Below are positions 1-58,534 of a stretch of 60,247 nucleotides of DNA, piece by piece (position 1 is the first letter of the stretch; the number at the start of each line of letters is the position of its first letter). Origin of the DNA: a virus; the IMG/VR virus record IMGVR_UViG_3300023118_000002, positions 1-60,247 of that record; one strand, given 5' to 3'. The notes beneath the pieces were generated by a model. The model was not told where the DNA came from and ran no database searches. It saw only the letters and a list, made by a program, of their open reading frames with translations. The position numbers and the translations under genes are program-made.

Positions 1-45
1 AGGGTTTTGCTCACTTTCCGGTAGCGCGTTAGTTACTTCATCCAT
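1..45 (-). CDS. 5' end of the 61-aa hypothetical gene (duplicate copy at the contig end)
   Basis: These bases hold the start codon and the first 15 codons (MDEVTNALPESEQNP) of the gene whose complete copy lies at 59980..60165. The start codon overlaps the stop of the next gene upstream (45..251) as TAATG, so translation is probably coupled. On the circle this is one gene, not two. Confidence 0.7.
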   Translation of the reverse strand, partial: MDEVTNALPESEQNP

Positions 46-127
46 TAGATAGTGGCTCTAGGAAACGCGTAGATAAAGAGCACAATACCCAGTACAAGGT
101 TGAATGCTCCGATGAGAGACAGCCCGG
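1..127. repeat. 127-bp terminal direct repeat, left copy (circle overlap)
   Basis: Bases 1-127 are identical to 60121-60247. A gene (59980..60165) reads across the join and is intact only because of the overlap, which shows that the molecule is circular or circularly permuted. The exact 127-bp length matches a common assembler k-mer, so an assembly overlap is likelier than a biological terminal repeat. Confidence 0.95.
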
Positions 128-251
128 TACTCACTCCGGAAGACATACCTACGCCACGTGCCATGTAGGACCAGAATCGCAGAATGTATGCAATACCAAT
201 GATCAAGGCAAGGACCGCGATGAAAAAAAGCAGGAGGTTAAGGAAGAGCAT
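45..251 (-). CDS. Small two-helix membrane protein (68 aa)
   Basis: The protein is almost entirely hydrophobic: a first membrane helix spans about residues 2-25 and a second about 40-65, joined by a short loop with a few charged residues (RFWSYMARG). There is no signal-peptidase site, so it is probably an integral inner-membrane protein. It lies downstream of the surface-anchored protein gene (373..1953), separated by 121 bp, and its stop overlaps the start of the following gene. I do not recognise the family. A holin-like or exclusion role is possible but nothing in the sequence decides it. Confidence 0.75.
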   Translation of the reverse strand: MLFLNLLLFFIAVLALIIGIAYILRFWSYMARGVGMSSGVSTGLSLIGAFNLVLGIVLFIYAFPRATI

Positions 252-372
252 GGTAGTACCTTTCTAAAAGTTAGTGAGGGGCGCAATTATCTCTAGGGGG
301 GATGAGATTTTGCTGTCTTTTATATCTGGCCTAATCGGGGGAACCGGCCAAGAGCCCACATCAAATATGTTA

Positions 373-1953
373 CTAGCGGTTCATCGAACGGCGGCGAATC
401 ACAACGCTGGCTGCGAAGAGAATCACACCGAAGATGAAGATCCCAAGAGCAATGGCACTCGTGGAGTTGGTGTTGGAGCTCGCACCAGTTGATGCAAGAA
501 CTTCAGCCGGGACAGGAGTCGTCTTGACAACTACCGGAGCAATCGTCTCGACAGGAGCAGGAGTCGTCGGCGTAACAACTACCGGGGGCTCCACAACAGG
601 CGGCTTTGCGTACTTCAGATCGAAGCAGTCACCCTTTGCTGCAACGAGAGTCGCTCCGTCACCCTTGGCATAGGACGAACCAGTCTGCCAATGGATGGAA
701 GTGATCTTGTTGTGCGGGTAGGCCGCGGCGATCTCAGCAATGGTCTTGCCAAGGAACACGTTCTTGCTACCGACATTCGCAACCGAGGCCTGAGTGACAT
801 TGTGATCGGTGATGGAAAGGGAGTTGTAACCACCCAGTCCGTCGCCAGTCAGGTCCACCACGAACCGGAAGAAGATGCCGTTTCCGACAACATCCTTATC
901 GGTCCAGTTGATGCCCGTAAAGCCCTGCAGGTTGCCGTTGGTCGGGTAACCGAACTCCACCGGAGTCTTATCGCCCTGGCTCACAAACGACTTGCCATCT
1001 GCAATATCTGCAGGAGCGTGGTCATCTGACTCAGTGTAAGCGCCACCGACGAACGTACACTTCTCGCCTGCAACCGGAGGAGCGACGTAGCAAGCAGCCG
1101 AAGCGTCTGTGCTTTGAGTTACACCAGTTGCAGGAAGCACGACGAGCGTCTGAGAAAGCAGGCCAACGACCTTGGTTCCCTTCGGGTACTTCGCATCAAA
1201 GCCAGGTCCAACTTTCTGAACGGTGGCAATATACGTACCAGGTCCCGTGTATGCCTTGTTCAAATATACGCGGAAGCCGTCACCCTCGTACCCGTTCGGG
1301 TTCTGGGCAGCAGGCCAACTCGTCAGAGGCAGCAATCCAGCAGTGTCACACGTGGGGGGATTGACCGCAAGCGGCCCAACCTCGATTGTGGTAACGGTGC
1401 AGGCGGGGGTAGTGAAGACGTTGTAAACCTGACCGGAAGCCGGCCAAGACTCGTCTCCTCCGTTGAGAACACCCTTGGTAACTAGAGCGGTCGTCTTCGC
1501 ATCATCCGCGTAGAGATCGAACTGGTAAGTCGTCCCACACTTGGTAGCGAAACTGTCGAACTGGTGGACATCCGTGCTGGTGGTCAGACCGTCATGCACG
1601 AGTGCCTGGGGGAATTTAGGCTGCAAGTTGAGCGCGCCCTCCCAGATAGCCGCGTGGTACGTCACGACGGGTGCCGTTTTCGTCTCCTGCACCGGCTCCG
1701 TGGACACCGGCGTAACCTCTGTGACGGGGTCCGGGGAAGTAGACTTCGGGAGTTCCGAGGGCGTAACGTTCGGCTCGGAAACCGGCTTCTGGGCTTCGAC
1801 TGGCGTCGTCGACTCGACGGTAGGGGTCTCGGTGACGACCTGAGCCGTATCCGTGGGCGTGCCGACCTCGTCTGCTGTGGCGGGGCCGGCCAGTGCTAAA
1901 CCCCCGAAACCGAGGGACAGGACTAGTCCTGCTGCTGCAAAGATCTTTTTCAT
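373..1953 (-). CDS. Secreted surface protein with LASTG cell-wall sorting signal
   Basis: The protein begins with a classical signal peptide (two Lys, then a Leu/Gly/Ala-rich core, cleavage near ALAGPATA|DE around residues 22-28). A Thr/Pro/Val-rich low-complexity linker follows to about residue 95, then a Cys-containing ectodomain. The C-terminus has a second Pro/Thr/Val linker, the motif LASTG, a hydrophobic helix (IALGIFIFGVILFAASVVI) and a basic tail RRRSMNR. This order (LAXTG, helix, Arg tail) is the sorting signal of class E sortases of actinobacteria. I infer that the host sortase displays the protein on the cell wall, perhaps to block superinfection or to change adhesion. Two ATGs are adjacent after AAGGAGTAA; the second has better spacing. 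The stop of the upstream gene lies within this start region. Confidence 0.88.
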   Translation of the reverse strand: MKKIFAAAGLVLSLGFGGLALAGPATADEVGTPTDTAQVVTETPTVESTTPVEAQKPVSEPNVTPSELPKSTSPDPVTEVTPVSTEPVQETKTAPVVTYHAAIWEGALNLQPKFPQALVHDGLTTSTDVHQFDSFATKCGTTYQFDLYADDAKTTALVTKGVLNGGDESWPASGQVYNVFTTPACTVTTIEVGPLAVNPPTCDTAGLLPLTSWPAAQNPNGYEGDGFRVYLNKAYTGPGTYIATVQKVGPGFDAKYPKGTKVVGLLSQTLVVLPATGVTQSTDASAACYVAPPVAGEKCTFVGGAYTESDDHAPADIADGKSFVSQGDKTPVEFGYPTNGNLQGFTGINWTDKDVVGNGIFFRFVVDLTGDGLGGYNSLSITDHNVTQASVANVGSKNVFLGKTIAEIAAAYPHNKITSIHWQTGSSYAKGDGATLVAAKGDCFDLKYAKPPVVEPPVVVTPTTPAPVETIAPVVVKTTPVPAEVLASTGASSNTNSTSAIALGIFIFGVILFAASVVIRRRSMNR

Positions 1954-1956
1954 CAT

Positions 1957-2238
1957 TTACTCCTTGTTTGGGTCGTGCCTGAATATTTCGATGGTGTCTG
2001 CTCTGTTTAGAAGTACCGGGGGAATTGCGAGGAGTGGTGCTGTCGTTTCGTAAACAACATCTGTTCCAACCGCTAGATGAATCTGAATTGCGTTTATAGT
2101 TCCAACTTCGCCATGACCTTCAATATCAACGAAATACGGAACTTCAGAGTCAGCTGCCAGAGCTTTGCGGTATTCACTTTTACCAGATCTTGGTGGACCT
2201 GTCAAAATAGTGAAATGGCCTTTTTGTACTGCCGACAT
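1957..2238 (-). CDS. Mini P-loop protein with Walker A motif (about 93 aa)
   Basis: Residues 14-22 read TGPPRSGKS, a clear Walker A loop after a short beta strand (HFTILTG). The rest is much shorter than any usual P-loop NTPase, and I see no convincing Walker B acidic pair, although YFVDIEG could supply one. It may be a stripped-down nucleotide kinase or a nucleotide-binding regulator. AAGGAGTAAATGATG precedes the start and overlaps the end of the 36-aa gene upstream, and its stop abuts the start of the surface-protein gene. This tight spacing shows one operon. Confidence 0.7.
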   Translation of the reverse strand: MSAVQKGHFTILTGPPRSGKSEYRKALAADSEVPYFVDIEGHGEVGTINAIQIHLAVGTDVVYETTAPLLAIPPVLLNRADTIEIFRHDPNKE

Positions 2239-2248
2239 CATTTACTCC

Positions 2249-2359
2249 TTACAGAATGTAGAAACCGTTTTCATCCTGAGGAGGAAGGTTACCGGCTTCA
2301 ATCAAATTACCGATCAGGTCGGCCAAATCAAATATATCTTGAACGGTCATGTCGTCCAT
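2249..2359 (-). CDS. 36-aa microprotein
   Basis: The reading frame starts at ATG after AAGGAGGAACC and encodes an acidic 36-residue protein (MDDMTVQDIFDLADLIGN start, NGFYIL end). The strong ribosome binding site and the exact fit between its neighbours support it. I recognise no domain. The pattern VQDIFDLADLIG recalls VQDVYDEMTREQ in the 57-aa gene at 2607..2780, so the two may be related. Confidence 0.65.
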   Translation of the reverse strand: MDDMTVQDIFDLADLIGNLIEAGNLPPQDENGFYIL

Positions 2360-2424
2360 GGTTCCTCCTTAAGTTGAAAGCGAAGGGGGCCAAGCGATTG
2401 CTCAGCCCCCAAATATATAGCTAG

Positions 2425-2607
2425 TTACTCAGCAGCCTTTTTGGCCGCATCGGTAATGTCCTCAAGGACCTCGACTGCCTTGTCGCTGGGTGCGATCTTG
2501 ATGAGGCCGGCAGCGAGCGTGACAGCTACGACACCTGCACCGATGATCACGGTACGACGGATGATGGTGCCCTTGTTGGCGTTGATGGTGCGGATGAAGT
2601 TCTTCAT
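2425..2607 (-). CDS. Single-helix membrane protein (60 aa)
   Basis: A basic N-terminus (KNFIRTINANKGTIIRR) is followed by one membrane helix (TVIIGAGVVAVTLAAGLI) and an acidic, Lys-rich amphipathic tail. This predicts an N-in membrane anchor with a short exposed helix. AAGGAGAAAACTG precedes the ATG, which overlaps the TGA of the upstream gene as ATGA. It belongs to a run of similar tiny membrane proteins between 2.4 and 6.8 kb. Function unknown. Confidence 0.75.
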   Translation of the reverse strand: MKNFIRTINANKGTIIRRTVIIGAGVVAVTLAAGLIKIAPSDKAVEVLEDITDAAKKAAE

Positions 2608-2780
2608 CAGTTTTCTCCTTGTTTGGGTTTTGAATCGAGTAACTCTTGAAGATGCTCTACAAGAGTCGTCATAACTATTTCTTGTGTGTCTAAAACAGAT
2701 CCAACTAAGAACGCAACTACAACCTGCTGTTCTCGAGTCATTTCGTCATAGACGTCTTGAACGGTTCTTGCTTTAGTCAC
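2607..2780 (-). CDS. 57-aa protein resembling the phage delta/scaffold motif
   Basis: The gene starts at GTG, overlapping the upstream TGA (TTGTGA), and ends in ATGA overlap with the next gene. The protein contains TVQDVYDEMTREQQVVVAFLVG. The pattern (V-x-D-V-Y-x-x-M-T-x-E-Q-x-x-V-V-x-x-L-V-G) resembles the region around residues 198-212 of the capsid polyprotein here (TLTPKQTEVVEYVIG) and short phage proteins that I recall from Firmicutes phages. It may be a small helical oligomerisation module. I infer this from the pattern only. Confidence 0.6.
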   Translation of the reverse strand: MTKARTVQDVYDEMTREQQVVVAFLVGSVLDTQEIVMTTLVEHLQELLDSKPKQGEN

Positions 2781-2932
2781 AATCCGGTTCCTTCACATTC
2801 CGGACAGTGGCAGACTTCGAATTCCATGTAGCCGCACGCTTCGCATTTACACGGTCCCCGATCGTCTGGTACCAGATCATTGAAACATCGATCTGTAGTC
2901 TTGCCGGGGGAGAGCTCGGAAGCTAATGGCAA
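2777..2932 (-). CDS. Small Cys-rich zinc-ribbon-like protein (about 51 aa, TTG start)
   Basis: The frame ends with CKCEACGY and CHCPECEGTG, two CxxC-type knuckles that would bind zinc, so the frame is protein-like. No ATG fits; a TTG lies 7 nt after GGGAGG inside the 3' end of the upstream gene (56-nt overlap). The downstream GTG overlaps its TGA. The start is uncertain. An alternative 35-aa frame begins at the ATGA overlap but looks like non-coding sequence. Confidence 0.45.
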   Translation of the reverse strand: MPLASELSPGKTTDRCFNDLVPDDRGPCKCEACGYMEFEVCHCPECEGTGL

Positions 2933-3671
2933 GACAAGGCCTCCCATCCGGAGTCAGCGCACTGTTGAACTCGATACTCATCTTGTTCTCAGGAGCGAAT
3001 CCGACCTGTTCGCCGACAACGGCGTCTTCGAGACCTACCAGGTGATAGAACTCGTTGAGTGACATGTACATCTCACCGTCAATAAGCATTTCGTTGATGT
3101 CGTTCTGAGCAGAACGAATCTTCTCCATACTCGAGGTGAAATATCGACGGGTGTAGGTGTCGAGGCAAAGTACGTCTCCGGTACCGATCACAAGAGCGTC
3201 TTCGCTAGGCGGAGGATTCTTTTCGATCTGCTTCTTGACTACCTCGGTACGGACCTGATCTTCCTTGGTCTTTCCGAGTGCCTCTACTACCTGCTCTTTG
3301 TACTCCTGGAACGCGCCTTCAGTAATTGCGAAAGCACCTACAAGAGCGGCCTGACGCCTCGAGTTGATGCTCTGAGCACCGATGATACAGGCGACCGTTG
3401 CAGCTCCAGTTGACAATGCCGGAATATAAAGCGTCCAGTTGAGCTTGACCAGATCCCAATTGGTAAGAAGCTTAGGTTCAGCTCCTCCTGCTTTATATTC
3501 CGCCTCCATGTCACTGATGAGGTTGTCGGTTTTACGGACGGCTCTAGGTGTTGCTTTGACCGCCAGTATAGCTGTACTGAAAACTCCAGCTACGGCCAGA
3601 CCCGTCAGGATGACAGGTGACTTTGTTTGAACGCCTTTTACAGCATTCCTAGCGACGACGGCGAGGGACAT
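2877..3671 (-). CDS. Membrane protein of the DUF6353-like phage family (paralogue 1)
   Basis: The protein has an N-terminal membrane helix (residues ~19-38), a second hydrophobic region (~78-100), then a long cytosolic or periplasmic domain ending in a conserved LNEFYHLVGLEDAVVGEQVG block. The layout and several blocks match the 299-aa protein at 55234..56130 (P-x-x-L-T-G, S-x-x-F-x-x-Y-x-x-x-V-x-x-x-L-G, LNE-x-Y-x-x-x-G, V-G), so the two are paralogues. I recognise the family from phages of Firmicutes and actinobacteria, from memory as DUF6353; its role is unknown. The start overlaps the end of the upstream gene by 23 nt. Confidence 0.8.
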   Translation of the reverse strand: MSLAVVARNAVKGVQTKSPVILTGLAVAGVFSTAILAVKATPRAVRKTDNLISDMEAEYKAGGAEPKLLTNWDLVKLNWTLYIPALSTGAATVACIIGAQSINSRRQAALVGAFAITEGAFQEYKEQVVEALGKTKEDQVRTEVVKKQIEKNPPPSEDALVIGTGDVLCLDTYTRRYFTSSMEKIRSAQNDINEMLIDGEMYMSLNEFYHLVGLEDAVVGEQVGFAPENKMSIEFNSALTPDGRPCLAISFRALPRQDYRSMFQ

Positions 3672-3867
3672 AAATTGCCTCCGGCTTTCTAATTGTGTTT
3701 ACATCATAAAGTACGCGGCCGTTTGCGAATTTACGAATTGCTCTATTCATCCTGCGCCGTTCAAAGAATCTACGCAGGCTGTTTGCGATCGGTTTGCGGA
3801 AATATCCCAACCACAGCAAAGCTGCAAGAGGAATAGCGATCGACCACGGGATGTTATCGGGTGTCAT
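3649..3867 (-). CDS. Single-helix membrane protein with basic tail (72 aa)
   Basis: MTPDNIPW is followed by one membrane helix (SIAIPLAALLWLGYF) and a strongly basic C-terminal region (RRFFERRRMNRAIRK, ending PRRRR), typical of a membrane anchor with a cytosolic nucleic-acid- or lipid-binding tail. TTGAAAGGAGAGAACAA precedes the ATG. The gene lies right behind a terminator-like hairpin and overlaps the DUF6353-like gene, so the pair is probably co-translated. Confidence 0.7.
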   Translation of the reverse strand: MTPDNIPWSIAIPLAALLWLGYFRKPIANSLRRFFERRRMNRAIRKFANGRVLYDVNTIRKPEAIYVPRRRR

Positions 3868-3890
3868 TTGTTCTCTCCTTTCAAGAAAGA

Positions 3891-3923
3891 AAGCCATACC
3901 ACAGGATTAGTGTGATATGGCTT
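3891..3923 (-). terminator. Hairpin between membrane-protein genes
   Basis: Arms 3891-3898 and 3916-3923 are perfectly complementary (8 bp); after one mismatch a further 4 bp pair around a 7-nt loop. In the direction of transcription the hairpin is followed by TTTCTTTC, so it may terminate the transcript of 3948..4127 or act as a processing site just before the next ribosome binding site. Confidence 0.6.
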
Positions 3924-3947
3924 ATTGCAGTTTTGCAGTTGGCGAGA

Positions 3948-4127
3948 TTACTCGGCCGACTCTTCTTCGGGCAGGACCGCGTTGAGGATTGCTCCAGAGA
4001 TCAGCGTGACCGCGACCGCTGTTGCAACACCGAGAACGATGTTCACGGCAAGCTTGGTGGCGAGGGCTTTGCTGACCTTCTTGAGCTCATCCTTGTTGAG
4101 GTCTTTGATGACGGTAGAGGTGGGCAT
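3948..4127 (-). CDS. Single-helix membrane protein (59 aa)
   Basis: A charged N-terminal helix (VIKDLNKDELKKVSKALATK) precedes one membrane helix (LAVNIVLGVATAVAVTLISGAIL) and an acidic end (PEEESAE). The ATG follows TCTTGAAAGGAACTACA. A conserved phage promoter lies 30 nt upstream (4157..4182), so this gene has its own transcript. Function unknown. Confidence 0.75.
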   Translation of the reverse strand: MPTSTVIKDLNKDELKKVSKALATKLAVNIVLGVATAVAVTLISGAILNAVLPEEESAE

Positions 4128-4156
4128 TGTAGTTCCTTTCAAGAGGTATTACTGGT

Positions 4157-4182
4157 CATTATATGCCCTGTTTTTTGCGCGA
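4157..4182 (-). promoter_or_regulatory. Phage promoter, TCGCR-N5-AACA-N5-TATAATG family
   Basis: On the minus strand the site reads TCGCG, 5 nt, AACA, 5 nt, TATAATG. TATAAT is a perfect -10 hexamer. It stands directly upstream of the 59-aa membrane protein gene and overlaps the start of no gene. Confidence 0.75.
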
Positions 4183-4183
4183 G

Positions 4184-4537
4184 TTATCCGGGGTAACGGA
4201 GCTCGATATACTCTTCCGAGAAATCAGCCGAGTCAGTCACGAAGAGCTTTACACCTACGAGCGTGTCATCAACTAAATTGTTATTCCCTCGAGGCATGAG
4301 GAACGAGGGGAACGTGTTTACGAACAGGTTAAGGTCAACCATCGGAGTAACCGTGCGATACACAACGTGCAAAGCTGGCTCCCCCTCAGATGCAAACCAA
4401 GTATCACCCTGAATATCCAGAGCAGGCTCGATGTAGGGAGTGTCCGGATTGGCCTGAGGAGGCAGTAGTCGATACATCTGCGCTTCCAGTACACCGATCT
4501 CTTCGGGCATGATACCCATGTGAATTGCAAGACTCAT
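4184..4537 (-). CDS. Hypothetical protein (117 aa)
   Basis: A soluble acidic protein with mixed alpha/beta composition, several PP and NP turns and aromatic residues (DTWFASEGEPALHVVYRT). No membrane helix or nucleotide motif is visible. The start ATG overlaps the TGA of the upstream gene (TGATG) after GGAGAAGAT. I do not recognise it. Confidence 0.65.
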   Translation of the reverse strand: MSLAIHMGIMPEEIGVLEAQMYRLLPPQANPDTPYIEPALDIQGDTWFASEGEPALHVVYRTVTPMVDLNLFVNTFPSFLMPRGNNNLVDDTLVGVKLFVTDSADFSEEYIELRYPG

Positions 4538-20441: not shown

Positions 20442-20754
20442 TGTACACACCTCCTAACGTAAGATTGAGTCTTCGATCGACAACCTCAACAGTCGAAACT
20501 GTCCAAAGCGTGCCCATCCAAGTTACGTATCGAATGTTAGCAAAATGCATGTTTGCATAGGCATCCGCAACAATACTTAGTGTGTTCCCGACAGTGATCT
20601 CATTAGTAGCAGTATCACCTGGATTCAAACGACGATTGTTGCGAAGGACGTCACCATAGGCATTACGCTCTACGATGACGTCCTTCCACACACCAGGCGA
20701 AGTTTCTACTTGAGCAGGCTCAGCATAACCGAGCTGTCCGAAGAACTTAGCCAT
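20383..20754 (-). CDS. Head closure/head-tail connector protein (123 aa)
   Basis: The protein has GQLGYAEPAQVETSPGVWKD, VIVERNAYGDVLRNNRRL and a beta-rich middle (ANIRYVTWMGTLWTV). The pattern G-V-W-x-x-V-I-x-E-R-x-x-x-G-D-V-L-R-N is known from head-closure proteins of similar phages. It lies between the capsid protein and the tail terminator. Confidence 0.75.
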   Translation of the reverse strand: MAKFFGQLGYAEPAQVETSPGVWKDVIVERNAYGDVLRNNRRLNPGDTATNEITVGNTLSIVADAYANMHFANIRYVTWMGTLWTVSTVEVVDRRLNLTLGGVYNGPKASAPDRSGNFDGGTP

Positions 20755-20767
20755 GGATTACTTCTTG

Positions 20768-22774
20768 TTACGCGGTACGAGTGAACGTCCAGTCGCGGTC
20801 GCTGTCGTGCTGGATTCCGTAGTTCGGAGCCGGAACGGCCTCGATGTCGAAAGTAGCGTTGACGGCGATAGCAGGCTGTGCACCCGAGTTCAGGACTGCG
20901 CCAGTGTTCGCGTTCTTGTAGATCACGCCAGTAACGGCCGGGATCGTGACAACACCAGTGCCGTTGACGAAGGTCGGAGCCTGAGCAACGACCACGTGGT
21001 CAGCGTTGATGACGAACGTGACAGCCGACTTCGGCTTGGTCAGCGCACCGGAGATGCGAGTCTCCAGCAGGTACTTCTGCTGGTTGTAGTCGATGTCGAA
21101 GAAGTCGAAGAGGTTGATCTCTCCACCAGCGTCAGCACCAACGGTGTAGTCCGCGAGGTTAACCGCGATACCAATGATGTCGGCGTTGTCCTCCATGACC
21201 TCGACGGTCACGATGTCGGCGACGGTCAGGGCAGCTGCGAGCTCTGCCTTGGTTGCGTACAGACGACGACCCAGGGTGTCCTTCACCAGGATGAGCTTCG
21301 TGAAGACAGCACGAGTGGTGTAGAAGGTGGGGGTACCGGTACCCTTGTAGTTGTTCAGACCCACAACAACAGCATCGATCAGGTCGTTCGGCGCGAGGGT
21401 CGAGGACAGCGGAACGGTGGTGTTGTACATGTCGACGTCGTACGCGATCGGGCGGACGGAGTCCTCGTCGATCTTGTCGTCGTCGTCGGACTCGCGGTTG
21501 TCACCAACGAGGATGGCACGCGCGATTTCCTCGTCGAGCATGACGCGCATCTCAGCCTGAATCCAGACCAGGATGTTGACCTCGGTGATGTCGATGATGT
21601 CATCGCGGTCGAGCTTCTGCTTCTTGTAGACCGTGGTCGGCGTGGTGATGCGACGCAGGAGCTTGATGACCTCGTCCTTCTTGAGGTTACCCTTGACGTA
21701 ACCCTTCGCACGAGCCTCATCTGCCGTCAGGTCAGCCGAGAACGACTTGATCCGAGCAAACGGGCTGTGGTGGGTACCATCGAGAACGTTCTGCACCCAC
21801 TCCATACGACGGGAGACATAGGTGATGCCGTTCTGGTCCAGCTTGGCGTCGGGGAACAGCAGGTCGATGTTCTCGATGCCGTAGTCCGCCGCGTGAGCGA
21901 GGAACGACTGCTTGAGCGAACCGAACTTCGGGCCGTCATCGAGGATGGTCTGAAGCTGAGCCGAGGTGAGCTTCGGACGCTGGGCGCCGTGTGCCAGCGT
22001 GTCCCCGTTCTGCTCGAAGGCGTTGCGCATGTTTTTGATTCCTTCCTGAATCGTTTCGTCGACGTGAGCAAGGAACTCTTCGTCATCAAGTACTGCGGAG
22101 TGTGCTACGGTGCTGCTCGAAGTGGCCTCTTCAACGGCGGCGCCGATGACGTACTCCACAACTTCGGTCTGCTTCGGGGTGAGAGTCTTGAGAATGTCTT
22201 CGACAGTCTCGTTCTCATCCGTTACAACAGTGGACTCGTGCTGAAGCTTCTGCTCCTGCTCGTCGTCCGTCTTGGTGGTGATCTTGTCTCCCACAATTTC
22301 TCCTTCGGGACTTTCGTGCTGGAGCTCTTCTCCAGTGAAAATTACTGCTTCGTCTTCGATGACATCATAGGTTCCGTCACCGTGTGCTAGACTGACATTG
22401 TCAATCTTGGCTTCCATGTTTGCGCCCTGCATTACGAGACTTACTTCCGTAATGTCACCATGCTGGACCAAAGAACCAAGCTGCTGAAGGTTCTTAGCAA
22501 AGATAGAGAGGCTCTCAATGTCACCGTTCTGAACGAGCTGCTTGCCCATCTGACCAGACTCGGTGTCATTAAAGAATCCATAAGTGTAGATGCTGCCATC
22601 TCGGTTCTCGAGAATAGCGTGACCAAGAACATTGTCGAGGTTATCATGACGATGCTTCCAAACTAGCGGGACGGTAAATTTGTCCTGGTGCTTGAAAGCG
22701 TCGGGCATGATAGTCCGTCCATCGCTGCACTTGATACCACTCTTAGTTGCCCATCCACTAAAATCTGCTTCCAT
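20768..22774 (-). CDS. Fused prohead protease, scaffold-like region and major capsid protein (668 aa)
   Basis: Residues 1-125 match the HK97-type prohead protease fold: His in WKHRHDN (~41-43) and the nucleophile region ESLSIFAKN (~88-95), then EVSLVMQGANMEAKID. Residues ~126-300 are an acidic, helical delta/scaffold-like region with repeated L-[AQ]-H sites (SLAHG, LQHES twice, TVAHS, FLAHV, TLAHG, FLAHA), which I infer to be processing sites. Residues ~300-600 are the HK97-fold capsid (YGIENIDLLFPDAK, TPTTVYKKQKLDRDD, MLDEEIARAILVGDNR). The last ~70 residues form an Ig-like domain shared with the tail tube. Protease, delta region and capsid protein are usually separate or paired genes; a single fusion requires self-processing in cis. 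Confidence 0.88.
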   Translation of the reverse strand: MEADFSGWATKSGIKCSDGRTIMPDAFKHQDKFTVPLVWKHRHDNLDNVLGHAILENRDGSIYTYGFFNDTESGQMGKQLVQNGDIESLSIFAKNLQQLGSLVQHGDITEVSLVMQGANMEAKIDNVSLAHGDGTYDVIEDEAVIFTGEELQHESPEGEIVGDKITTKTDDEQEQKLQHESTVVTDENETVEDILKTLTPKQTEVVEYVIGAAVEEATSSSTVAHSAVLDDEEFLAHVDETIQEGIKNMRNAFEQNGDTLAHGAQRPKLTSAQLQTILDDGPKFGSLKQSFLAHAADYGIENIDLLFPDAKLDQNGITYVSRRMEWVQNVLDGTHHSPFARIKSFSADLTADEARAKGYVKGNLKKDEVIKLLRRITTPTTVYKKQKLDRDDIIDITEVNILVWIQAEMRVMLDEEIARAILVGDNRESDDDDKIDEDSVRPIAYDVDMYNTTVPLSSTLAPNDLIDAVVVGLNNYKGTGTPTFYTTRAVFTKLILVKDTLGRRLYATKAELAAALTVADIVTVEVMEDNADIIGIAVNLADYTVGADAGGEINLFDFFDIDYNQQKYLLETRISGALTKPKSAVTFVINADHVVVAQAPTFVNGTGVVTIPAVTGVIYKNANTGAVLNSGAQPAIAVNATFDIEAVPAPNYGIQHDSDRDWTFTRTA

Positions 22775-55233: not shown

Positions 55234-56130
55234 TTAGATCTTGTCGTAGATCACCCCGTCGACGTTGAAGTCGAGCCAGATGTTCTTTTCCCAACCGTTG
55301 ATGAAGTTGCGCTTGGACTGAGTGGATGCGTCATACAGACCAAAGTCGATGAAGTTGTCACCGTCCTTGCTGATGATCCATCCCACAACTGCACCTTCAG
55401 GGGTGTGCGGGAATCCGAGACGCTCATAAACCTCATTGAGGAAGATGTGCCCGGTTGCAAGCAGCTTGTCATTGAGTCGGTTCTGCTCGGACGTCAAGAA
55501 GAACTGGTTGTAACCAGCTCCATCCTGCCAGTAGTCATTACCCTCATCAAAGACACGAGCGTACTTGCTCATCTTGGTCGGGTCGACCTCAGTGACCACA
55601 GTCTTCTTACCGTCAGGACCCTTCTCCGAAGACTCGGTGATGCCCAGTCGGTAGTCCCGATCTTTGTCTGCACCGAGGTCCTCGATCACACGAGCACGGT
55701 AAGCCGCGAAGCTCTTCTCAACTGCGTTGTATGCAGCGACAAGTGCGACGTTACGCTTACGCATGATGCCGTGACCTGCAAGGATTGCTCCAGCACCGGA
55801 GATAAAGAGGGACGTAGCAGGGCCATAGAGCTTGGTGAACTCCAGCACGTTTCTCAAATATACTCTGTAAAGCTGGCGCTTGTAGTTGGCCTCGGTGTAC
55901 TCTTCAACCTCGTCAGGGTTTTCCTGAGAGAGAGCATAAGACTGCTTCGTGTCGTTGACACGGCGCTCAGCACGAGCAACCGTTTCTTCAAGACGAAGGG
56001 TAGAACGAACCGCGAGAAAAGCTCCGGCGGACATACTGACAAGACCAACGCCCGTCAGAATCTCCGGCGCGTACTTCTTGACCAGCAGCCCACCTCGGCC
56101 TACAACACCGTTGAGGCTAGTTGGTACCAT
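55234..56130 (-). CDS. Membrane protein of the DUF6353-like phage family (paralogue 2, about 298 aa)
   Basis: Two membrane helices (about residues 22-43 and 107-130) with a charged coil between, then a soluble domain with HIFLNEVYERLGFPHTPEGAVVGWI and the end WEKNIWLDFNVDGVIYD. The layout matches the paralogue at 2877..3671. I recall this family (DUF6353) from many phages; in Firmicutes phages it lies near the IPNDDNR and SVADLYDL families, as here. Function unknown. Confidence 0.8.
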   Translation of the reverse strand: MVPTSLNGVVGRGGLLVKKYAPEILTGVGLVSMSAGAFLAVRSTLRLEETVARAERRVNDTKQSYALSQENPDEVEEYTEANYKRQLYRVYLRNVLEFTKLYGPATSLFISGAGAILAGHGIMRKRNVALVAAYNAVEKSFAAYRARVIEDLGADKDRDYRLGITESSEKGPDGKKTVVTEVDPTKMSKYARVFDEGNDYWQDGAGYNQFFLTSEQNRLNDKLLATGHIFLNEVYERLGFPHTPEGAVVGWIISKDGDNFIDFGLYDASTQSKRNFINGWEKNIWLDFNVDGVIYDKI

Positions 56131-56422
56131 CATTTTTCTCCTTCATTTCTATTTCTAGTTGTTTCTCTTCCGGAGTCTTAGGTCGGACTCGGAATTCTTG
56201 TCGAACGCTGAATCTGTGATCCTCTTCTACAAGGATGTTATCAGCTCGGATGATTGTGACGGGGTATTCTTCGATCACGTAGTAAAGCGCAAATACTTCA
56301 GGAGACAGACCAGACGCATGGACCATCGCCTCAAGCCATTGCTCTTTGTCGTAAGCGATCGAGTCAACGATGTTCATGACGAACTCTTGAAACTGGAAAG
56401 GCCCGTCTCCTGTGTCAGGCAT
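56117..56422 (-). CDS. Hypothetical protein (101 aa)
   Basis: A soluble protein with FQFQEFVMNIVDSIAYDKEQ and a Glu/Lys-rich C-terminal helix (EEKQLEIEMKEKNDGTN). The ATG lies inside the end of the upstream gene (8-nt overlap). The longer frame would overlap the upstream gene by more than 200 nt, so I chose this ATG. Confidence 0.55.
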   Translation of the reverse strand: MPDTGDGPFQFQEFVMNIVDSIAYDKEQWLEAMVHASGLSPEVFALYYVIEEYPVTIIRADNILVEEDHRFSVRQEFRVRPKTPEEKQLEIEMKEKNDGTN

Positions 56423-58003: not shown

Positions 58004-58534
58004 TTACTTACTCGTGAAGATGGCGTTCTTGTACTCGAAGCTGGGGGAGTAGGCGATCGTGATATCTGCGGCGTCAGCAACGCTGAAAGCCTCGTTCCAC
58101 TTCATCGTCTGTCCAGCAAGAAGCGGGCCAGCGGGGGTGTCGCCGATGTTCTGACCGAAGTCCGAGATCGCTGCAGCCTGCTGTCCACCGGAGGTAGCTG
58201 TGGGCCACCCAGCCTGGTCGAGAGTCTTGTCCGAGTTGTTGGTAACTACGAGAGTGACCTGAATATAAGTCATTCCAGCAGTCGCTCCAGCCGCCTCAGG
58301 AGAAGGCGTGTATGGCGCTGCAGGGCTCACCGAGACGCTGACACCGTCCTTGTAGGTCACTACCTCGCCGAACTTCTTGACCAAAGGATCGGTCACAGGA
58401 GCAGGTGCCGGCTTCTCAACGGTTGCCGAGGAGGCCTTGGGATCTGCGTGGGTGGAACCCTGAACGGCGCATCCTGACATCAGGAGAACGACGGGGAGGG
58501 CGATTGCGATGCTGATTTTCTGGATGGTGTTCAT
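58004..58534 (-). CDS. Secreted lipoprotein with DUF4352-like domain (176 aa)
   Basis: Lipobox VVLLMSGC at residues ~15-22 after a basic start, so signal peptidase II cleavage and lipidation of Cys22 are expected. A linker follows, then a DUF4352-like immunoglobulin domain (FGEVVTYKDGVSVSVSPAAPYT..., YIQVTLVVTNNSDKTLD). Phage lipoproteins on the outer face of the membrane often block DNA entry of other phages; I infer superinfection exclusion here. ATG follows TCTTGAAAGGAGAAACCTAAA. Confidence 0.85.
   Translation of the reverse strand: MNTIQKISIAIALPVVLLMSGCAVQGSTHADPKASSATVEKPAPAPVTDPLVKKFGEVVTYKDGVSVSVSPAAPYTPSPEAAGATAGMTYIQVTLVVTNNSDKTLDQAGWPTATSGGQQAAAISDFGQNIGDTPAGPLLAGQTMKWNEAFSVADAADITIAYSPSFEYKNAIFTSK

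Follow-up and report, generated by a model that had tools for sequence, protein, structure and literature searches.

The motif recognised by class E sortases is LAXTG, not LPXTG, and their host substrates, among them the chaplins ChpA-C of Streptomyces, are described as combining a signal peptide, a LAXTG motif, a hydrophobic helix and a basic tail (PMC5148588). Phage T5 encodes Llp, an anchored surface protein which blocks the receptor of T5 itself, and the T5 report names adsorption to lysed cell fragments as a reason for exclusion (PMC9586334). phiD12-like prophages of group B Streptococcus are reported to carry a hypothetical protein of the LPXTG class, in the setting of a temperate phage and lysogenic conversion (PMC6546898).

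Here we describe a gene from a 60,247-nt stretch of viral DNA (IMG/VR record IMGVR_UViG_3300023118_000002, positions 1 to 60,247; hereafter the window), the product of which has points in common with each of these proteins. It has the same four elements as the host class E substrates described in PMC5148588; unlike them, it is phage-encoded, one of its domains (M) is nearly absent from host chromosomes, and its C-terminal end scores below the TIGR01167 cut-off. With Llp, as described in PMC9586334, it shares being phage-encoded, exported and surface-anchored in a lytic infection, export and anchoring being predicted for the window protein. However, Llp has a lipid anchor and belongs to the Gram-negative outer membrane, while a covalent link to peptidoglycan is predicted here and the exclusion role is a proposed one; the likeness is drawn without claiming a relation in sequence. 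The phiD12-like protein is also phage-borne and has a sortase motif, the comparison being one of descriptions (PMC6546898). Homologous ectodomains together with a signal peptide and a LAXTG anchor are found in Kozie gp78, Rie18 gp58, Jollipop gp82, Magritte gp249 and Big4 gp260 of Microbacterium phages, which belong to the same family by domain sharing but have other domain combinations and whose deposited records do not label them as sortase substrates. In the open-access literature we found no description of this Microbacterium phage family as sortase substrates, or of lytic viruses using a host sortase; in PMC12617251, sortase is mentioned among the references only.

We suggest that this is an accessory gene, the product of which would be mounted on the wall by the host sortase as a coat, with ectodomains that are swapped between phages and that shield the phage receptor. 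Taken as a whole, this reading has just short of an even chance of being correct.

Gene architecture

The gene occupies positions 373..1956 on the minus strand and encodes a protein of 527 aa, opening with two consecutive ATG codons. There is a strong Shine-Dalgarno sequence in the closing codons of the frame before it (AAGGAG-TAA-ATG-ATG), and its spacing suits the second ATG, at 1953, the coordinate given in the preliminary description of this DNA. This upstream frame of 94 aa (1957..2241, minus strand) contains a P-loop-like motif and gave only weak library matches; its stop codon is followed immediately by the surface gene, and the two probably form one operon. Upstream of the pair lies a terminator-like hairpin (2385..2410, minus strand), recognised by consensus match only, one of seven found in positions 1-4300 against 4.1 expected. 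Promoter-like sites near the surface gene did not exceed the count expected by chance.

All parts of the protein are encoded on the minus strand. A predicted signal peptide (residues ~1-29, ending AGPATA before DEV; 1870..1956) is followed by a Pro/Thr/Glu-rich linker (residues ~30-95; 1672..1869) and by three stretches of ectodomain. The first, N (residues ~96-182; 1411..1671), matches Big4 gp260; the second, M (residues ~183-294; 1075..1410), is beta-rich and shared with Microbacterium phages; the third, C (residues ~295-450; 607..1074), is under the highest constraint and matches Kozie gp78 and a protein of phage MO526. A second Pro/Thr linker (residues ~451-485) leads to the cell-wall sorting signal (376..498), identified by frame scan, alignment and homologues, which consists of LASTG at residues 487-491, a hydrophobic helix (predicted at 496-526) and the basic end RRRSMNR. 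Every element listed in the preliminary description, namely the signal peptide, the Pro/Thr linkers, a Cys-containing ectodomain and the LASTG-helix-RRRSMNR end, is present in the sequence.

The sorting signal and the host sortase

To find cell-wall sorting signals, the last 60 aa of every stop-to-stop frame of 60 aa or more in the whole window (366 frames) were searched for L[AP]xTG followed by a hydrophobic 15-mer and, after it, K/R. The surface-protein frame alone satisfied this rule; with shuffled C-termini of the window frames the rule fired in 13 of 73,200 cases. On the NCBIfam model TIGR01167 the end of the window protein scores 12.5 bits, below the cut-off of 15.9, and the protein is not a filed member of this family (LPXTG_anchor), while the end of its sister in another IMG/VR contig (L006) exceeds the cut-off at 17.4 bits. 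L487, A488, T490 and G491 form the sole contiguous invariant motif (LAxTG) in an 11-protein alignment. The LAXTG-helix-basic end is kept in 24/24 complete homologues, and a crude script scored all of them as having a hydrophobic stretch at the N-terminus together with an AxA site. Together with the window's own, these ends fall into 11 anchor clusters at 70% identity, in an uneven sample where two clusters contain 9 and 6 of the 25 ends.

We infer that the window derives from a virus that infects actinobacteria of soil or water, with Microbacterium or a relative as host. Genus and family were counted around a reference genome, that of a Microbacterium MAG contig ('Microbacterium sp. isolate EAC103'). 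A class E sortase (NF033747, over cut-off) was present in 184 of 198 genomes of its genus and in 56 of 60 of its family. No Pfam sortase was detected in 13 phage records, several of which are fragments. The claim of the preliminary description that the phage encodes a sortase substrate of the LAXTG class is supported by the retention of the anchor in all 24 relatives and by the near-universal class E sortase of the probable host group. Judged from these sequence comparisons, the protein is very probably anchored by sortase.

Phage homologues and domain exchange

The preliminary description had pointed to other actinophage genomes as a place to look for homologues, and 90 Microbacterium phage records indeed match the surface protein in tblastn; among the matches listed (60 of the 90), the aligned parts lie within residues 124-320, chiefly in M. 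Searched alone, C matches Kozie gp78 and MO526, and N matches Big4 gp260. The 24 complete homologues compared come from 17 isolate phages (Magritte, Jollipop, Rie18, Leaf, MO526, Kozie, Big4, Jayden, Erudite, Quhwah, Ganandorf, Paschalis, Hager, NoodlelyBoi, Anakin, MortySmith and Yeti) and seven IMG/VR loci (L006, L013 and L015-L019). L014, the left end of which is cut and the other end of which resembles that of L013, was left out of this count, as were L012 and L020-L025, which repeat contigs already counted. Between the conserved signal peptide and the LAXTG anchor, the ectodomains form a mosaic across homologues, with M conserved across phages. A tblastn search with the N-type domain of L015 found no match among phages.

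Relatives of the surface protein have been deposited as 'membrane', 'hypothetical' or 'glycosyltransferase' proteins. The last label is carried by Quhwah gp85 (L295, 1264-2589) and Paschalis gp81 (L297, 1264-2589), both actually LAXTG surface proteins, and also by another gene near them. Big4 gp260 (L009, 3359-5614) has an additional Excalibur calcium-binding domain (PF05901, 23.4 bits against a cut-off of 22) beside its LAATG anchor.

A DNA pattern for LAXTG followed by a run of Arg occurs in at least 120 stretches of the viral contigs. Among 122 scanned loci, which were chosen by id range, may include a few others and give no measure of prevalence outside Microbacterium phages, a LAXTG-type frame was found in four and was accompanied by a signal peptide in L225 only. 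The latter, a 224-aa frame with a LAYTG-helix-RRRTR end on a 56,959-base IMG/VR contig, is apparently another phage-borne sortase substrate.

Selection on the surface gene

In comparison with the sister gene (L006, in IMG/VR contig 3300023093_000001), the surface gene shows a dN/dS of 0.25 over 514 codons, indicating purifying selection. By part, the ratio is 0.13 for N, 0.13 for M and 0.027 for C, against 0.89 and 0.37 for the first and second linkers and 0.76 for the anchor region. The anchor region is loose in this comparison but nevertheless retains LASTG, the helix and the basic tail, and such wide drift around three retained elements is the behaviour expected of a general sorting signal.

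As no part is better conserved across homologues than the anchor and the ectodomains are variable, the protein could act as a decoy, flooding the class E sortase and so reducing the host's own LAXTG proteins, such as appendages or receptors, on the cell surface. A decoy would need the anchor alone, however, and the dN/dS of C, together with the conservation of M across phages, argues that the ectodomains matter; we consider this explanation improbable.

Residues of C are 98% identical between the window and the sister contig, compared with 51% for the minor tail protein and 40% for a DUF6353 protein. This points to exchange between divergent phages. The difference from the tail gene further indicates that the surface protein does not evolve in step with the tail, and it counts against a receptor mask, as a protein masking its own phage's receptor might follow the tail genes and C does not.

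Related domains in host genomes and fold searches

Profiles of the three domains were compared with 349 genomes of the reference family: M was found in one, C in two and N in nine, with only three strong N matches (E 1e-24 to 3e-19). An earlier M-domain pattern scan of genome contigs, which found no relative, is superseded by these searches, and a weak C match in one host locus (L171) was not reproduced in a separate profile run. In 10 of 12 host loci with N, M or C, two loci being judged by eye, the frame with the domain has a C-terminus made up of LAXTG, a helix and basic residues; L165 and L170 are the loci without such an end. To judge from these searches, it is uncommon for host surface proteins to use related domains, and M is nearly exclusive to phages.

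The existence of host proteins with related domains, and a GC content of 0.579 in the surface gene vs 0.489 in the window, would fit a host gene acquired by chance and functionless in the phage. Yet GC3 deviates by a z of only 1.5, M occurs in a single family genome, 90 phage records match, and the gene as a whole evolves under purifying selection; we therefore regard a mere passenger as extremely improbable.

The layout of the ten host proteins with LAXTG-type anchors is that of bacterial surface adhesins, which suggests another role: anchored ectodomains might make infected cells adhere to surfaces or to one another, which would place released progeny beside fresh hosts. Rib, PKD and Big domains are among the weak structural neighbours of M, as would suit an adhesin, but these matches are within noise. 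Using VIA, M reached Z ≥2 with 29 of 776 chains and 2.9 at best; with Z <3, a PKD, Rib, FN3 or Big-like fold was rejected as too weak for naming. We consider adhesion unlikely, and retain receptor shielding as the preferred role of the ectodomains.

Other searches were largely negative. Neither Pfam nor PHROGs holds a family for the surface protein or its domains, and weak PHROG matches of its relatives were rejected for lying in linkers. AF2 modelled the full-length protein poorly (mean pLDDT 42), and Foldseek gave no match; M modelled alone (pLDDT 70) had no PDB match at E <0.001, and its sole significant viral match was a protein of Microbacterium phage Cressida (61% identity). Profiles of M and C gave no matches among PDB sequences. 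That these searches identified no known binding fold counts against the proposed shielding coat, as does the TIGR01167 score of the window's anchor.

Genome context

The window is colinear with the genomes of Microbacterium phages Camille, DizzyRudy and Count, with identities of 58-60% for the DNA primase/polymerase, 52-53% for a large 'HTH' protein and 56-58% for the helicase. A LAXTG frame was absent from the regions of these three phages that were examined (20-53 kb, 20-56 kb and 29-79 kb), and the surface gene is therefore accessory in this lineage.

In the window the surface gene lies downstream of the tail genes and on the same strand. This arrangement would suit a virion protein, a fibre or decoration of the particle for which the LAXTG end serves merely as a membrane anchor, and Kozie gp78 does match a virion-protein PHROG. 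That match was rejected, however, as it is confined to the Pro/Thr/Glu linker (residues 330-368), and signal peptides are found in 24/24 homologues. In the isolates checked, moreover, the neighbours of the gene are not virion genes: it follows a DnaE-like polymerase or has DNA-binding, ParB or glycosyltransferase genes beside it. The paper on the carrier phage KaiHaiDragon (PMC9224216) contains no mass-spectrometry data on virions. A virion protein is thus very improbable. For the wall coat that we favour, the position near the tail genes makes late expression of the window gene possible, which would weaken the exclusion idea.

That the phage is lytic, as had been assumed, finds indirect support. 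No tyrosine integrase (PF00589) was found in two records, the possibly incomplete window and the L006 contig. KaiHaiDragon, a phage with a homologue of the surface protein, is described as lytic; its latent period is 90 min, and it has neither integrase nor repressor genes (PMC9224216). The same observations weigh against the gene having been selected in long-lived carrier or pseudolysogenic infections, for which the hypothetical LPXTG protein of phiD12-type Streptococcus agalactiae prophages (PMC6546898) offers a precedent; such a persistence function has, in our estimate, a low probability.

The preliminary description also suggested that a lipoprotein encoded near 58 kb may belong with the surface gene to one programme of envelope remodelling. 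The latter is a DUF4352-like lipoprotein (58004..58534, minus strand; assigned by family match and conservation) and a possible second envelope gene, conserved in Count, Camille, Damascus and DizzyRudy. The idea of one programme is weakly supported: Count, Camille and DizzyRudy keep the lipoprotein but have no LAXTG frame in the regions examined, and the two genes therefore occur independently of each other. In Count the lipoprotein gene stands beside a glycosyltransferase gene, which hints at envelope modification (window 58004-58534; L294 12743-14380).

Proposed function

We propose that the signal peptide would direct the surface protein out of the infected cell by Sec, and that the host class E sortase would then cut LASTG between T and G and join the protein covalently to host peptidoglycan. 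The small ectodomains, one to three in number and borne on a Pro/Thr stalk, would project from the wall of the infected cell, where they may shield or occupy the phages' wall receptor, and would do so on wall fragments after lysis as well. Competing phages and the phage's own progeny would thereby be spared loss on infected cells and debris. Binding of KaiHaiDragon is reported to be stopped by periodate and not by proteinase K, pointing to a carbohydrate receptor (PMC9224216).

Receptor shielding, which we argue by analogy with Llp, is a real possibility, though we put it rather below even. A coat on the cell surface would be useful to a lytic phage solely before lysis or, afterwards, on debris, and a covalent wall anchor would serve both of these needs, which are those of Llp, in a cell without an outer membrane. 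On a broader and more tentative reading, several distinct groups of lytic Microbacteriaceae phages would share a rapidly shuffled protein family that commandeers the class E sortase, as a Gram-positive counterpart of T5 Llp; because the covalent bond would outlive the cell, wall debris would stay shielded and could not soak up progeny.

If the protein is anchored as predicted, lytic phages, and not prophages alone, would use the host sortase to remodel the surface of a doomed cell. Microbacterium foliorum and its isolated, sequenced phages would then offer a cheap and genetically open system for the question of a wall-bound block to adsorption, and a likely role would be available for products that deposited records list as membrane or hypothetical proteins or, in error, as 'glycosyltransferase'.

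Other genes of the window

Two diverged copies of a DUF6353 gene (PF19880, phrog_2152, of unknown function) occur in the same phage, at 2877-3671 and 55234-56133. A 924-aa protein encoded at 34031-36805 matches phrog_4291 ('RNA-dependent RNA polymerase') at an E value of 0, and its relatives in Camille, Count and DizzyRudy, 52-53% identical, are annotated only as helix-turn-helix proteins. The gene at 20768-22774 is a fusion of capsid and protease, related to genes of Arthrobacter and Microbacterium phages; its reverse strand contains an open frame of 545 aa (20753-22390, plus strand), probably a by-product of the high GC3 (0.714).
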